Assembly: GCA_903940125.1 (NCBI GenBank) | Contig: CAJAJL010000065.1 | Span: forward strand, 62,001 to 126,000 | From: an uncultured Chlorobiaceae bacterium | Lineage (GTDB): Bacteria > Bacteroidota > Chlorobiia > Chlorobiales > Chlorobiaceae | Length of the DNA stretch: 64,000 nucleotides | Reading direction: 5' to 3' | Shown here: positions 12,186-19,253 of the stretch, in pieces | Layout: the number at the start of each line of letters is the position of its first letter | Position numbering within the stretch: the stretch's first letter is position 1 | The notes under the pieces: model-generated | Databases searched by the model: none | Seen by the model: only the letters and a program-made list of their open reading frames with translations | What the model was told of the DNA's origin: nothing | Program-made: the position numbers and the translations under genes

Positions 12186-13460
12186 TCAATGCACCGAGCA
12201 TGAAATGCACGGGTCGTAGGAACGCACCACCATTTCACAGAGCTTTTCTATCTCCCTGTCGTTTTTTCCATCCTTTAAGGCTTGCTTCGTAATGGCCTTC
12301 AGATCGTTATGAATATTGGCATTATTCTGCGTTGTCGGGATGATACAGTCCGCTTGAACCACTTTACCTTCTTCATTGGTTTCCAGATGGTGATACAGAA
12401 TCCCGCGTGGAGCTTCGACAGCTCCGGTTGCTGAACCGGCTTTCGGTACGTATGGGGTTTTAATTTCATGCAGTTCCATGTTGAGCAGAACGTTGATCAG
12501 CTCTTCGGCGTCCTCAAGAATATGAACGCATTCGATAAGCTGTGCGATGTTATTCATGAACGGGTTGTGGCAGACTGGCTGGAGGGCGAAGCTTTCGGCG
12601 ACCTCTTTGGCTTTGGGATGAAGCAGATTGCAGTTGTTATTGAATCGTGCCAATGCACCGGCGGCTGACGATTCCCGGCTGAGCCTGGTGAATTTAGAAG
12701 TGGAAAAATCATGGGTGTATTCGTTGGTCATCAATAGGTAGTCATTCTCATTACGTTTTACGCCATCTGTGGAGATAAGATCTCCTCCGATAGACGGATA
12801 GCTTGATCCATTACAAAGAGAGATAAATTCAGTTTCGCGTTGGAAATCCGGAATGGCAAGGGTATGGAAAAAAGAGCATGCGGTCTCCAGTGCCGGCTTT
12901 CTTTCCTCGATCATAGTGCGAAGTTGTAAAAGCTGCTGTTTTTCGGGAGCTTTGCTCAGACCGCCGACCACAAGACTGACTGGGTGGGTGCATCGACCTG
13001 CTGATACTGTGCTGATCTCGTTGCCGAGTTCCTTGAGCAGCAGTCCCGCCTTGATAAGATCGGGGTGGGAGTGAATCAGAGGCAGAATACTTGCTGTCCC
13101 TGTAAAATCAGGAACAACAAGAAAAAAGAGGTGCAGTGCATGACTTTGAAGGGTTTCACCGTGCATGGCAAGCAGCCTTATTTTTTCAGCAGCATTCGGA
13201 GGCGCGATCTTCATTGCCCGTTCAAGTGCTCTGATACTGGCAAGGGCGTGACTGATTGAGCAGATCCCGCAGATTCTCGATGTGAGAAAGGGGACTCTCT
13301 CTGCGCTCAAGCCTTTCACCATCACTTCAAAAAACCTCGGTGTTTCAACAACCGCCCATCGTGCATCGACAAGCTCTCCGTTCTTAACAGATATTGAAAT
13401 GTTTGCGTGACCTTCCACCCTTGTCAGATGCCGGATATCGAGAGTATAGTCACGCTTCAT
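12186..13460 (-). CDS. hydA: NiFe hydrogenase large (alpha) subunit, sulfhydrogenase/group 3b type
   Basis: Catalytic subunit holding the Ni-Fe(CN)2CO centre of a soluble HydBGDA-type hydrogenase (H2 oxidation or evolution coupled to NAD(P)H and sometimes sulfur reduction). It has 424 residues from the ATG at 13460, which overlaps the hydD stop. N-terminal nickel ligands are C64 and C67 (RICGICS); the C-terminal pair is C418 and C421 in DPCISCSVH. The protein ends exactly at that His, with no C-terminal extension for a maturation protease. TRVEGH at the N-terminus is also typical. An upstream in-frame start at 13496 would lie inside hydD. Confidence 0.92.
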
Positions 13461-14190
13461 GGCTGCAGAATTCTCCAAATGCATTATAAAAAGCAATCTT
13501 TTCCTGCAGGTCGTCGAGACTGAGTTTTCTTTCCCTGATCAGTTCCACGAATGCGGGCATGTTGATCTCTTCTGACGGGCCGCGGCACCCGAGACAGGGA
13601 GTTTTTCCTGTTGTGCATACCGCATTGCATCCGGCACGGGTTATAGGCCCGAGACAGATTTCGCCAAGCTCAAAAAGACATGTGTTGAGTCTTGCCTTGC
13701 ATTCAACACAGACAGGGTGTTTCGGTAGTGTCACCAGAGATCCGGTTGCCAGGCATACCATGATTCGCTCTACCTCCTCTTTGTTTACAGGGCATCCTGG
13801 AATGGAGAAGTCAACCTTGACTACTTCGCTGATCTTTCTCACAAGCAAGGTTTCTACCGGCATTTCCGGATAAACTTCTGCTAATGTTTCATTGAGAGGG
13901 AATTTGTTTTTCAAGCTGTTGACTCCTCCAAAACAGGCACAGGTGCCGAATGCGACAAGAGTTTTTGCCTGCTGTCGAATTGCCTGAAGTCGTTCAATCT
14001 CATCCTGACGGCTGATACTTCCTTCTATAAGGGCGATGTCGTAATCGTTGTATTGTTCGCTGGAAAGCTCCCTGAAATTTCTGATATCAAGCAGCTCAAG
14101 AAAGTCAGTAAGCGTCGATTCCCCGTTCGCAAGCTGCAGCTGACACCCTTCGCAGCAGGTAAAGTCGAAAGACGCAATTTTCAGTTTCAT
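13450..14190 (-). CDS. hydD: NiFe hydrogenase small (delta) subunit
   Basis: Electron-transfer subunit that carries Fe-S clusters from the NiFe site to the diaphorase half. It has 246 residues, and the proximal-cluster motif CxxC is at C13-C16 ([10 protein letters not shown]). More Cys ligands lie in [18 protein letters not shown] and the Cys-rich C-terminal third ([33 protein letters not shown]), enough for three clusters. It overlaps hydA by 11 bases. Its 5' side faces a divergent toxin-antitoxin promoter rather than hydG, so it needs its own promoter within 14191-14260 (AT-rich, with TATATT-like sequences on the minus strand) or read-through from hydG. Confidence 0.9.
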
Positions 14191-14257
14191 GGTTCTCTGG
14201 GACTTTATTTAACTACTAATAATATACTCAAGACAGGAGAGAAATCCAGTTATGAAT

Positions 14258-14286
14258 TTGATGAATGGTGGTATGTGATTTATATT
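14258..14286 (+). promoter_or_regulatory. sigma70-type promoter of the first toxin-antitoxin pair
   Basis: TTGATG and TATATT separated by exactly 17 bases, about 115 bases upstream of the antitoxin ATG and pointing away from hydD. The downstream extension ACGTTT is shared with the promoter-like site at 17058. Confidence 0.5.
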
Positions 14287-14401
14287 ACGTTTATTATTCT
14301 TGTATAGGTTGGGTGAAGTCGATCCAGAATTTTTGGGTAATTGGTTTAACATTGCTTTTTTTAACATTTTTTGATAGCGTCAAGAATTCGCAGAGGTAAC
14401 C

Positions 14402-14626
14402 ATGAGTTTAAATACTGTTTCTGTATTTGATCTGACACCGCCAGAAAAGCTTCAACTGGTAGAAGATCTGTGGGACGATCTGGCAGCTATACCGGAAGAA
14501 ATTCCAGTATACGAATGGCAAAAAGAGGAGCTAGCTCGTCGAAAGGCTAATCTTAAGAGCAATCCTGCTTCAGGGCTTTCGTGGGCCGAAGTAAAACTCA
14601 AGGTGCGAAGCCGATATGCAGGCTAA
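14402..14626 (+). CDS. antitoxin of addiction module (PF09720-like)
   Basis: A 74-residue acidic protein of the putative addiction-module antitoxin family: LTPPEKLQLVEDLWDDLA at the N-terminus, a central WQKEELARRKANL helix, and SGLSWAEVKLKVRSRYAG at the end. A GAGGTAACC ribosome site precedes the ATG. It overlaps the toxin start by 11 bases, the usual antitoxin-toxin coupling. The antitoxin is expected to bind and neutralise the downstream ParE/RelE-type protein and to repress its own promoter. The pair sits between hydG and hydD on the opposite strand. Confidence 0.8.
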   Translation: MSLNTVSVFDLTPPEKLQLVEDLWDDLAAIPEEIPVYEWQKEELARRKANLKSNPASGLSWAEVKLKVRSRYAG

Positions 14627-14915
14627 TCTGATAATCGTACCTGAAGCACAAACGGATGTAGATAAGGCTTATGTTTGGTACGAAGATCGTCGGTTTGGCT
14701 TGGGGGAAGAGTTCCTGGGTTGTGTTGATGCTTGTATTCAGACAATTTGTCGCATGCCTGATATCTACCCGATAATTCATGAGCAGTATCGTCGGGCATT
14801 AGTAAGAAGGTTTCCGTATTCTGTTTTTTACGAGTACACTTTACAAAGTGTCATTGTGTACAGTATTTTTCATACATCTCAGAAGCCTGAGAAGTGGTTC
14901 AGGCGTTTGATGTGA
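14616..14915 (+). CDS. RelE/ParE-family toxin
   Basis: A 99-residue protein with the compact RelE/ParE fold: an N-terminal strand (LIIVPEAQTDVDKAYVWYE), two helices (GLGEEFLGCVDACIQTI), then the core strands YRRALVRRFPYSVFYEY and SVIVYSIFHTSQKPEKW. The conserved Arg and Phe in RRFPYSVFYE and the terminal His are family-typical. The target (ribosome-bound mRNA for RelE, gyrase for ParE) cannot be decided from sequence; the association with a PF09720-type antitoxin fits the ParE/RelE-like set. It ends 29 bases before the convergent hydG stop. Confidence 0.85.
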   Translation: MQANLIIVPEAQTDVDKAYVWYEDRRFGLGEEFLGCVDACIQTICRMPDIYPIIHEQYRRALVRRFPYSVFYEYTLQSVIVYSIFHTSQKPEKWFRRLM

Positions 14916-14944
14916 CAGTATGTCCGCATTTTTTCAATCTACCC

Positions 14945-15862
14945 CTAAATAGCTTCTTTGAGATTCATGACCGACCAGTAGTCGAAGACCGGTCCGTCAA
15001 CACAGGTAAAGGTTGATCCGACCATGCATCGGCAGCATTTGCCCATGCCGCAGTGCATCCTTCGCTCCAGAGAGACGAACATGCGGTTCATGGGAATACC
15101 GAGCCTGTCAAGATAGCTGCAGACAAACTTGAACATGACCGGAGGTCCGCAGACAACAGCATAAGTATGTTCAGGATTTATGGCAATATCGGAGAAAAGA
15201 TCCGTAATCATTCCTTTTTTCCCTTTCCATCCAGCATCAGCGTGTTCAACAATGGTATGCAGCGTAATATGGTTTATCTTTTCCCATTCGTTGAATTGAT
15301 AGGTGAAGAGAAGCTGCGACGGCTCTTTTGCACCGTACAGTACATGAACATGAAGAAACCTCTCCCGATGCTCGTTAATCCAGTAAAGCGGGGCGCGCAG
15401 TGGCGCAATACCGAGCCCTCCGGCAATAAGCAGAACATGGTGTCCGGTCATTTCATCCATTGGAAATGCCGATCCGAAAGGCCCCCTTATGGCAACATGT
15501 GCTCCTTCGCCAATAGTGAAAAGCGCGGAAGTGACATGGCCAGCCTTACGGATACAAAGCTCAATAAATTCATGATTACTGTTCGAACTTGAAATCGAGA
15601 TTGGTACATCGCCGTAGCCGGGCAGTTCAAGCATGAGAAACTGGCCGGGCTTGAACCTGAAAATTTCCCTTTCCCGAGTGTCGATAATGCGGAGCTTAAA
15701 AAGTTTTTCCTGATCAGTGAGTCGTACAATATTGGTGATGATGCATTTATATCCCATATCGTTTTTCATGATCTCAGAGCGGCGATTGAAATCAGGAATT
15801 GACGAAGAAAAATCTTCCCGGTTTATATCCTGTCGGGGGATGATGAAATGTTTGTCAGGCAT
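14945..15862 (-). CDS. hydG: hydrogenase gamma subunit, FAD/NAD(P)-binding oxidoreductase
   Basis: Diaphorase subunit of the HydBGDA complex, passing electrons between Fe-S clusters and NAD(P). It has 305 residues from the ATG at 15862, chosen because a GGAG/AAAGAG site precedes it; the frame stays open to 15934. The ferredoxin-reductase FAD motif is [20 protein letters not shown], the NAD(P)-binding stretch is [18 protein letters not shown], and [13 protein letters not shown] lies near the C-terminus. A terminal 2Fe-2S Cys cluster is seen in [12 protein letters not shown] followed by TFTCVDG. It overlaps hydB by about 40 bases. Confidence 0.88.
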
Positions 15863-16902
15863 GACTCTTTCTCCATTCTGAGGTCGTTGATGACATCTTT
15901 CGGATTTATTCCGGCAAGACATGCTCTCCCGCAACGGTTGCAGCCTACACAGATCTGCTGGTTGGCATTTTCGGCAAATCCACGGTGCTGATGGTAATAG
16001 CGATATTTGAGCCGGTCGCCGTTTTTTGGACGAAAATTGTGGCCACCAGCAACTTCAGCAAAGTCAACAAGGTTGCATGAGTAAAGTTTTTTATGGCGGG
16101 TTGCGCCTTTCAGATTAGTATTAAACGACTCCTCGACTGAATAGCAGTAACATGTCGGGCATACCATGGCACAGGTACCGCAATTCAGGCATTTGTTTCC
16201 CCATTTTTCCCAGACCGGGGAATCAAACTCAATATCGAGAATGCTCGGAAGCGCAGTAACGTCAACTTCTGAGAGAAAACCGTTTGAGATGAGTTTACGC
16301 CTTTCAACGAGGCGGCAGTTGTCATTGTCAAGAGGATCTCGGGTATCAAACTCCTTAAGAAAATTAAAGGCTTTTGATGAGTTGATAGAGAGGTAGTAAT
16401 CTTTTCCTATATCAGAACAGAATACATTGAAGCCGGTCGAAATGGTATGATGGTTCATTGATTTGCAGAAACAGTCAGGAAGTGGCAGATGATCCATGCC
16501 GATGACAAAGGTGTTTTTGCGTTTTGCGAGATAATAAGGAGAAGGGAAGTGTCCGTTGAGCAGAACATCGTCAAGAATATTCAAAGCACTTATATCACAC
16601 GCTCTGAGACCGATAAGAACAATTGGATTTGCCTCGTAATGTATGTGCTGATCCCACTCTTGATCACGAAACACAAAGCGCGACAACTCCTCCCGGAATG
16701 GCATAAAAAAGTGTTTCGCTGATGATGCTGTTGCGGTATAGTCAAAAGCAACATCGTCAGATGAAGTTACCGGTAAGAACTGGTATATAGCTTTTCCCCG
16801 GCTGTCAGTGTCAACCTGCCTTGGCCCGAAAGAGGCATTATCCCGGAGCAGGGCGTCAGTAAACCGTTTGAACTCAGATTTTGCTATGACTTTGTATATC
16901 AT
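15823..16902 (-). CDS. hydB: hydrogenase beta subunit, 4Fe-4S ferredoxin-like
   Basis: A 359-residue Fe-S subunit, first gene of the hydrogenase operon. Two 4Fe-4S binding motifs lie in the C-terminal half: [17 protein letters not shown] and [17 protein letters not shown]. These match the sulfhydrogenase beta subunit, also related to anaerobic sulfite reductase subunit A, which is proposed to take part in polysulfide reduction. The ATG follows an AAAGGAG ribosome site with 9-base spacing. Its promoter should lie within 16903-17040. Together with hydG it is physically separated from hydD/hydA by the inserted toxin-antitoxin genes. Confidence 0.88.
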
Positions 16903-17012
16903 CGAGCCCTACTCCTTTCCCTTTGATTCTTAAGAAAAAGTCCGTTTATACACGGAAAGATGCTCTTCTACTAAAGGTACAAAAAAGCTTTATGGAAGAA
17001 TAATAATCACAA

Positions 17013-17042
17013 GCACCGTTAGAAGCTTCAACGGGACGGTGC
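17013..17042. repeat. inverted repeat upstream of hydB
   Basis: A 7-bp perfect inverted repeat (GCACCGT ... ACGGTGC) with a 16-base spacer lies about 110 bases upstream of hydB and just before the divergent promoter at 17058. It could be an operator or a minor terminator hairpin; there is no T-tract. Confidence 0.35.
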
Positions 17043-17057
17043 ATTCAAGCAGTGAGT

Positions 17058-17086
17058 TTGAATTGCGGTTTGGTGGTGGTTATATT
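17058..17086 (+). promoter_or_regulatory. sigma70-type promoter upstream of the small conserved gene
   Basis: TTGAAT and TATATT with a 17-base spacer, about 45 bases upstream of the ATG at 17132. The sequence TTATATTACGTTT around the -10 is identical to that of the toxin-antitoxin promoter at 14258. Confidence 0.5.
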
Positions 17087-17131
17087 ACGTTTTTTTGCAG
17101 ATCAGAAATAAGAAAAAATGAGCTATGTCGG

Positions 17132-17329
17132 ATGATTAATGATCCAATTGTTGAAGAGGTTCGTCGTTATCGAAGAGAGCATGCTGCACGGTATGGTAAT
17201 GATCTTAATCGCATTGTAGAAGCACTCAGAAAAAAAGAGCGAGAGTCACATCGTATTCTATTAAATCCAGGGCCTAAACTGATTAATAAAGAAAAAAGTG
17301 TTTCCACGCTTAAAGTCTCAGAATCCTGA
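17132..17329 (+). CDS. small conserved protein of unknown function
   Basis: A 65-residue protein whose first 40 residues (MINDPIVEEVRRYRREHAAR, then YGNDLNRIVEALRKKE) match a widespread short family of the type MxDPIVxEVRxxRxxHAAxF. I know of no assigned function. Members are often scattered in accessory DNA near toxin-antitoxin genes. The frame is open to 17039, but the family start is at 17132 and the promoter-like site at 17058 supports it. It ends 22 bases before the convergent U32 gene. Confidence 0.6.
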   Translation: MINDPIVEEVRRYRREHAARYGNDLNRIVEALRKKERESHRILLNPGPKLINKEKSVSTLKVSES

Positions 17330-17350
17330 ACCAGTGCAGCCGTTTTCTTT

Positions 17351-18598
17351 TCAGACTCTTTTTTCAAGAACGTAAACCTTGTCATTTTTTCTGACCTTTG
17401 AACACTTGATGGTTACGCTATCACCTTTACCCGCAGCTGTGGCCGCCAGGTCGTTTGTATAAAAAGAATCAGCCATCAACGTTACCACTCCTGTTTTTGG
17501 CCCAAGAATTGAAAGCTTTTCGCCATTTTTAAGGCCACGGGCACACAAGATGATTTCTGCCACCTCTGCTTTAGGGTAATATTTCTTTACATCTCCGATA
17601 AAGGTTTTCTTTTCTTCTGCCATTGAACCGTACTCCCTTGTCCATGCCTCAATGGGTTGTCCAAAATAAAACCCTTCAGAAAATCCGCGGTTATAGACAA
17701 GGGCAAGCTCTTTTTTTAATGTATGAGTCAGGTTGCTGTACTGAGTTCTGAATTCCGGATCGTTTCGATGTTCTATACAGTAGTCGATTGCTTTGCGATA
17801 GGCTGTTGTGACGGTATTGACATATTCAGGGCTGCGGCTTCTTCCTTCAATTTTCAATCCACTGATTCCTGCATCGATAAGGACATCTATAAATTCGATA
17901 GCGCAAAGGTCTTTGGGGCTCATGACATAATCGCTACCGATTTCAAGCTCCTCGTTTTCCTCCGGATCGGTAATAATATACTGTCGGCGACAAGGCTGGA
18001 CGCACTGTCCGCGGTTTGCCGAACGGCCAAAAACCTCCTGTGACATAAAACATCGCCCCGAAACAGCAACGCACATTGCCCCGTGAACAAAGCATTCTAT
18101 GCGCACATCAAGCCCGTCAGCTTTTATTTTCCCGGTAATATGCCGAACCTGTTCAAGCGTGAGCTCCCTGGCCAGAACGATCATTTTTGCACCCAGTCCG
18201 GCATAAAACTTTACCGCGCTGTAGTTGCTGACCGAAGCCTGTGTTGAAATATGAAATGGCATATCTGCGTTACGGCAGGCTTCGACGACCGCCATGTCAG
18301 AACAGATCACGGCATCGAATCCTGCTTTCCTGGCTGCTGCAACGGTCTGTGACATTTTCTTCAGTTCAGCATCATAGACTATGGTATTCAGCGCCAGATA
18401 GCCTTTGGCGTTGAACTCAGTGCAGAGCGCTTTCAGGGCGGGAAAGTCCGAAATGTTGAAGTTGCTGCTTCCGGCGCGCATGTTATAGCCTTCAGCTCCA
18501 AAATAGACTGCATCCGCCCCGGCATTCAGGGCTGTTTGCAATGCGGTCATGTCCCCGGCAGGTGCAATCAGTTCAACGAAGTTTTCCGGCATGTCCAT
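17351..18598 (-). CDS. U32 family peptidase-like protein
   Basis: A 415-residue member of the U32 family. The signature is clear: [19 protein letters not shown] followed by [15 protein letters not shown], giving the family's conserved Cys residues. The TIM-barrel-like N-terminus starts [19 protein letters not shown]. In E. coli, relatives such as YegQ/TrhP act in tRNA uridine hydroxylation and UbiU/UbiV in oxygen-independent ubiquinone hydroxylation, so an RNA-modification or anaerobic hydroxylation role is more likely than simple proteolysis. The length fits the TrhP/YegQ subgroup. M3 is an alternative start. Confidence 0.87.
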
Positions 18599-18784: not shown

Positions 18785-19003
18785 ATGAGTATTCCAATAT
18801 CGGTGAGGTTGCCCAAAGAGCTGGCACAAAGACTGGATGGAATAGCGAAGGAAACCGAGAGACCTCGCTCATTCATCATTCAGAAGGCTTTGGAATCATA
18901 TATAGAAGATATTGCTGATCTTCAGATAGCGCTTGATCGCCTCCATGATACGAGTGATCCTTTTCTTTCAGCTAAAGAGATGAGGGACTCTCTTGGCTTA
19001 TAG
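18785..19003 (+). CDS. ribbon-helix-helix antitoxin
   Basis: A 72-residue CopG/RHH-type DNA-binding antitoxin. The N-terminal strand ISVRLPKELAQRLDGIAKET is followed by RPRSFIIQKALESYI, the standard RHH core. The C-terminal segment (LHDTSDPFLSAKEMRDSLGL) would wrap the toxin. A strong AAGGGGG ribosome site precedes the ATG at 18785. It overlaps the toxin gene by 11 bases. Expected to repress its own promoter at 18695-18729. Confidence 0.85.
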   Translation: MSIPISVRLPKELAQRLDGIAKETERPRSFIIQKALESYIEDIADLQIALDRLHDTSDPFLSAKEMRDSLGL

Positions 19004-19253
19004 TCTTGGTTACAAGAAATCTGTCCAGCGAGATCTCAAGCAAATATCAAAGTTGGAGGCAATACGTATTCTTGATCATATTGAGCAAAAACTTGTCAAC
19101 GATCCTGAATCGAATCCTCTCCTCAAATGCCGGTTTGCAGGTCTAAGGAGATATCGGGTTGGTGACTACAGGGTAATTTATTTTCTTCGGGAAACTGAGA
19201 TTTGCATCTTGAGAATAGGCCACCGTAGAGATGTTTATAAACAGGAAATATAG
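18993..19253 (+). CDS. RelE-family toxin
   Basis: An 86-residue RelE-type endoribonuclease toxin with a TTG start at 18993 inside the end of the antitoxin gene. Core features: YKKSVQRDLKQISKLEAIRI, then LLKCRFAGLRRYRVGDYRVIYFL and CILRIGHRRDVYK, the classical RelE ending with its basic catalytic residues (Arg in RYRVGDYRVIY, GHRRDVY). RelE toxins cleave mRNA in the ribosomal A site. Nothing suggests inactivation. Confidence 0.87.
   Translation: MAYSLGYKKSVQRDLKQISKLEAIRILDHIEQKLVNDPESNPLLKCRFAGLRRYRVGDYRVIYFLRETEICILRIGHRRDVYKQEI

Follow-up and report, generated by a model that had tools for sequence, protein, structure and literature searches.

A toxin–antitoxin cassette between hydG and hydD in a group 3b-type hydrogenase locus of the Chlorobiaceae, and a conserved element upstream of hydD

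Group 3b hydrogenases are encoded by the hydBGDA/shyBCDA operon, in which a contiguous gene order is usual but not strictly defining. The role of these enzymes in the Chlorobia is unsettled (PMC8125076). Intercistronic toxin–antitoxin (TA) pairs and operon splitting are both already known: ccd lies between folA and apaH and parDE between relA and mazG, each a small TA module between two genes at a plastic site where it can decay (review PMC7167474), and passages of PMC10138114, citing Price et al. 2006, discuss operon splitting with the gain of new regulatory signals, where the downstream half loses its original signals and needs new ones. The locus described here, for which a literature search found no report of the hydG–hydD operon split, is a natural case of operon disassembly and not a new kind of system. 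Unlike the ccd and parDE cases, the insertion interrupts the operon of a single enzyme and has cost the downstream gene its start. The case departs from operon splitting as treated in those passages in that the replacement element has its match before another, neighboring gene of this locus, and in that a single genus offers split, scattered and rejoined states for comparison.

The window, which is the whole 64-kb stretch of DNA analyzed, lies on contig C65 of genome G000, whose genus appears from its relatives to be Chlorobium. It contains the same four subunit genes in the same order as the group 3b operon, and the hydB/hydG and hydD/hydA overlaps are common to both; re-reading of the coordinates gave 40 nt and 11 nt, respectively, in agreement with the preliminary description. 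Unlike the group 3b operon, the hydG–hydD junction is broken in G000 and in ten other genomes of the genus Chlorobium. The features of the locus are as follows.

12186–13460, minus strand: hydA, NiFe catalytic (alpha) subunit
13450–14190, minus strand: hydD, small (delta) subunit
14188–14190, minus strand: derived hydD start codon, ATG
14191–14944: insert between hydG and hydD, 754 nt
14221–14247, minus strand: 27-bp conserved element GGATTTCTCTCCTGTCTTGAGTATATT, candidate hydD promoter/operator
14402–14626, plus strand: antitoxin gene, PF09720/TIGR02574, 11-nt overlap with the toxin gene
14616–14915, plus strand: ParE/RelE-fold toxin gene, PF05016, convergent with hydG
14945–15862, minus strand: hydG, FAD/NAD(P)-binding (gamma) subunit, stop codon adjoining the insert
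15823–16902, minus strand: hydB, Fe-S (beta) subunit of the group 3b-type hydrogenase, with Pfam and NCBIfam matches
16973–16986, minus strand: hydB upstream motif TTTTTTGTACCTTT, conserved as TTTTGYGTACMTTT before hydB in many relatives
17351–18598, minus strand: U32/TrhP-like gene, upstream of hydB

The products of hydA, hydD, hydG and hydB matched the Pfam families NiFeSe_Hases, Oxidored_q6, FAD/NAD-binding and Fer4, and the NCBIfam sulfhydrogenase (Shy/Hyd) models were top or near-top for all four, in every case under the equivalog cut-offs. The alpha, beta, gamma and delta subunits are thus homologous to those of the Hyd/Shy sulfhydrogenase, which is the four-subunit composition of group 3b, and the gene order departs from contiguity at the 754-nt insert. 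The hydG–TA–hydD arrangement is not an assembly artefact: its contig is 182 kb long, and an independent MAG (G031, locus L012) has the genes in the same order. In the split genomes, every one of the four hyd genes that was found is intact, indicating that the enzyme is probably still made. Genome G084 has, besides its split hydDA, a second, divergent hydD homologue (L202, G084:C11:84810-85544; 58% identity). Upstream of hydB, the gap to the U32 gene (16903–17350) is 448 nt in the window compared to about 80–160 nt in many relatives, and holds a 96-aa antisense ORF (17039–17329, plus strand) without a Pfam match, possibly a second small insertion.

The insert had been described as a 754-base gap carrying an opposite-strand antitoxin/toxin pair, and Pfam matches bear this out. 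The antitoxin matched PF09720 (Unstab_antitox, E 3e-19) and TIGR02574 (E 3e-16), the toxin matched PF05016 (ParE_toxin, E 4e-7), and the nearest solved structure to the toxin by sequence was the ParE2 toxin (8c26, E 0.003). The two genes belong to known type II families, both above the Pfam cut-offs, and are adjacent, overlapping by 11 nt with the antitoxin first; judged by its sequence, the pair has nothing unusual compared to known pairs of PF09720/TIGR02574 antitoxins and ParE/RelE-fold toxins. No paper was found in a literature search on PF09720. The pair is the sole gene content of the insert, in which no recombinase gene was found, and no clean target duplication was seen when the insert ends were compared with contiguous relatives. 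G000 contains six PF09720 genes in total, and related TA pairs are found away from hyd in G060, G028, G070, G074, and G073, where hyd is contiguous, indicating that TA pairs of this type are mobile within the genus. A second TA pair, of a RelB-like antitoxin (RHH) and a ParE_toxin/RelE-family toxin, is present in the window at 18785–19253, divergent from and upstream of the U32 gene and ~4 kb from the first pair. Genes of another kind were seen at three further loci: a PD-(D/E)XK transposase-like gene (PF12784) fills the hydG–hydD gap of L017 (2925–3815), and such genes lie downstream of hydG, near contig ends, in L184 and L186.

The distribution of the split was examined by searching for HydD and HydG in 86 Chlorobiaceae genomes, 74 of which have hydD. 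In agreement with the claim that the usual order is contiguous, hydG lies directly upstream of hydD on the same contig in 62/74, while 11/74 are split (G000, G031, G023, G068, G063, G084, G085, G082, G083, G065, and G032) and one (G072) is undecidable at a contig end; 80 loci of the genome collection gave the same picture. No hydG was found in G068, in which hydD is on a 3.6-kb contig, and this genome was classed as split on the basis of its TA pair and new hydD start codon. G031 has hydG, toxin, antitoxin, and hydD in the order and orientation of G000, with TA proteins at 79–80% amino-acid identity, a homologous pair lies directly upstream of hydD in G023 and G068, and G063, G084, and G085 have a more distant antitoxin (57–59% identity). 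The same pair therefore does stand at this junction in relatives, whereas the contiguous order is ancestral overall. As read from the assemblies of the MAGs G065 and G023, hydBG is on one contig and hydDA on another, and ordinary chromosomal genes extend for several kb around each half.

The split junctions share a distinct anatomy. In contiguous genomes, the native hydD ATG lies about 10–15 nt past the hydG stop codon, the HydD N-terminus reads MKxxGFxFEKLKIAS or similar, and the distance from the final hydG codon to the codon that aligns with the new hydD start is about 10–48 nt. In all 11 split loci, hydD lacks its native first ~9 codons (MKxxGFxFE in clade A) and starts at the same new ATG directly before KLKIAS, with a 5′ end of ATG-AA(A/G)-CTG or a near variant (ATG-ACG-CTG in G085). 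Two contiguous genomes, G074 (MNIA) and G080 (MVE), also have a short HydD N-terminus, so its loss is tolerated; G074 clusters with the split genomes in trees, and its operon may have been rejoined. In G000, a possible vestige of the native start of hydD, located between the toxin gene and hydG, was rejected as not significant (p = 0.016 against G037 alone, 0.12 corrected).

Upstream of the new start, the antitoxin–hydD spacer is alignable among G000, G031, G023, and G068, and the sequence GGATTTCTCTN4TCTTGAGTACATT or a near variant precedes hydD in these four and in G082, within diverged flanks. Element columns were invariant at 22/32 positions versus 13/95 around them (Fisher p = 1e-8, a value that depends on the alignment). 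The 27-bp element matched once in the window and in none of 100 shuffles, and a search of nine genomes gave nine matches, only before hydD (5) or the U32 gene (4), with none for the reversed control. The U32 matches lie 66–122 nt before the gene in G023, G068, G060, and G062; the element is absent before U32 in clade-A genomes, G000 included, and is not carried by the non-hyd TA copies of G060, G028, G070, G074, and G073. In most contiguous relatives, the U32 gene is directly upstream of hydB. The element core resembles the hydB motif TTTTGYGTACMTTT in G082, G023, and G031 (shuffle p = 0.002–0.014), while the likeness is not significant alone in G000 (p = 0.10) and has p = 0.09 in G068; we regard both as probable promoter regions, of the kind typical of Bacteroidota/Chlorobi. 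A second group of split loci (G063, G084, G085, G083, G065, and less clearly G032) has a different hydD upstream sequence that lacks the element and is conserved too. Not every split locus thus uses the 27-bp element, and hydDA, the orphaned half, may have acquired a promoter on more than one occasion.

The TA pair had also been credited with a promoter-like site of its own. This site proved weak, as four E. coli-type matches were obtained versus 2.0 ± 1.6 in shuffles, and sigma-70 promoters of the E. coli type were rejected for showing no excess over shuffles. The 27-bp element, on the strand opposite the TA pair and before hydD, is a far stronger promoter candidate. As for the proposed antisense transcription, the toxin and hydG stop codons are 29 nt apart, and a TA transcript running against hydG could, from this arrangement, overlap it.

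The explanation that we consider likely overall is that the cassette cuts hydBGDA into two transcription units, that hydDA has regained a promoter, and that the TA pair is a passenger, probably acquired laterally. A type II TA cassette would have taken the place of the coupled hydG–hydD junction, removing the native hydD start and first codons, so that hydD now begins at the new ATG before KLKIAS. A promoter of its own, most probably the element at 14221–14247, would then serve hydDA, and hydBG would retain the original hydB promoter, with the whole enzyme presumably still selected for, given four intact genes. The TA pair would persist in some lineages and decay in others, and the lineage of the window would probably have gained the cassette by exchange at the locus.

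The history of the cassette was traced with SecA as the species tree marker, as a search of G000 for rpoB gave nothing. In the SecA tree, G000 has G037 as its neighbor, within a clade whose other members are contiguous, and the HydA, HydD, HydG, and HydB trees agree in placing it among contiguous genomes, which suggests that G000 probably gained its cassette laterally, at this same site. A single insertion in an ancestor shared by G031 and clades A and B, with most contiguous genomes later restored by allele replacement, seems unlikely by comparison, though distant lineages have homologous cassette spacers and TA divergence scales with host divergence, as for a vertically inherited pair. Replacement does occur: loci L035–L041 are chimeric in the trees, with hydA from the split clade (clade B) and hydB, hydG, and hydD from another lineage, a mixed ancestry indicating an operon rejoined by replacement. 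A single insertion would, however, need about four or five independent restorations in clade A alone, and the hydD 5′ end of most contiguous clade-A members is of the clade-specific GGATTTACTTTT type, as expected from vertical descent. With modest confidence, we therefore prefer lateral acquisition in the lineage of G000 to four or five separate restorations. The low TA synonymous divergence, which is about 0.63–0.75 of that of the hyd genes between lineages, was rejected as evidence of recent transfer, because the same ratio holds between the sisters G023 and G068; it does not favor either history. No recombination tract was seen in G000 hydG or hydD past the first few hydD codons.

The claim that the insertion uncouples expression of the two halves is plausible and likely, though unproven, given the new hydD start codon, the conserved promoter-like element, and the halves on different contigs in G065 and G023. 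The competing account, in which hydBG transcripts read through the 754 nt so that a single hydBGDA message persists and the TA pair is carried along as an antisense passenger, is consistent with the intact hyd genes and with the failure to see a convincing terminator between hydG and the toxin or across hydG–hydD. We regard it as quite improbable, since hydD has lost its native start beside hydG and gained a conserved upstream element, and since the separate contigs of G065 and G023, with other genes around each half, indicate that hydDA can be expressed alone in relatives. Separate messages, with hydDA transcribed from the element, would thus be the better account of G000. That the TA pair is maintained because addiction stabilizes the hydrogenase locus, as previously suggested, is not supported and seems very improbable: G000, G031, and G023 do have an intact pair on which purifying selection acts (pairwise dN/dS about 0.1–0.3 for most pairs), but beside intact hyd genes the toxin is frameshifted in G063 and G084 and missing in G085, which has the antitoxin only, the antitoxin has a late stop in G068 and is a relic in G065 and G083, G082 has no pair, and 62 genomes keep the operon without one.

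These observations show that a TA pair within a metabolic operon need not mean addiction. Two aspects are worth following, the element common to the hydD and U32 upstream regions and the range of states within one genus. It is possible, and we put it forward tentatively, that the element is a specific regulatory site common to the U32/TrhP-like gene and, after the break, to hydDA, so that the halves are co-regulated again from separate promoters; if this is true, the orphaned hydDA captured a control element from a neighbor gene of its old locus. Within one genus, one operon is found contiguous, split by a TA pair, split with a decayed cassette, divided between two contigs, and rejoined by replacement with hydBGD of a different lineage; this natural series makes it possible to ask how a multi-subunit enzyme copes with a cut operon and how the downstream half regains expression.
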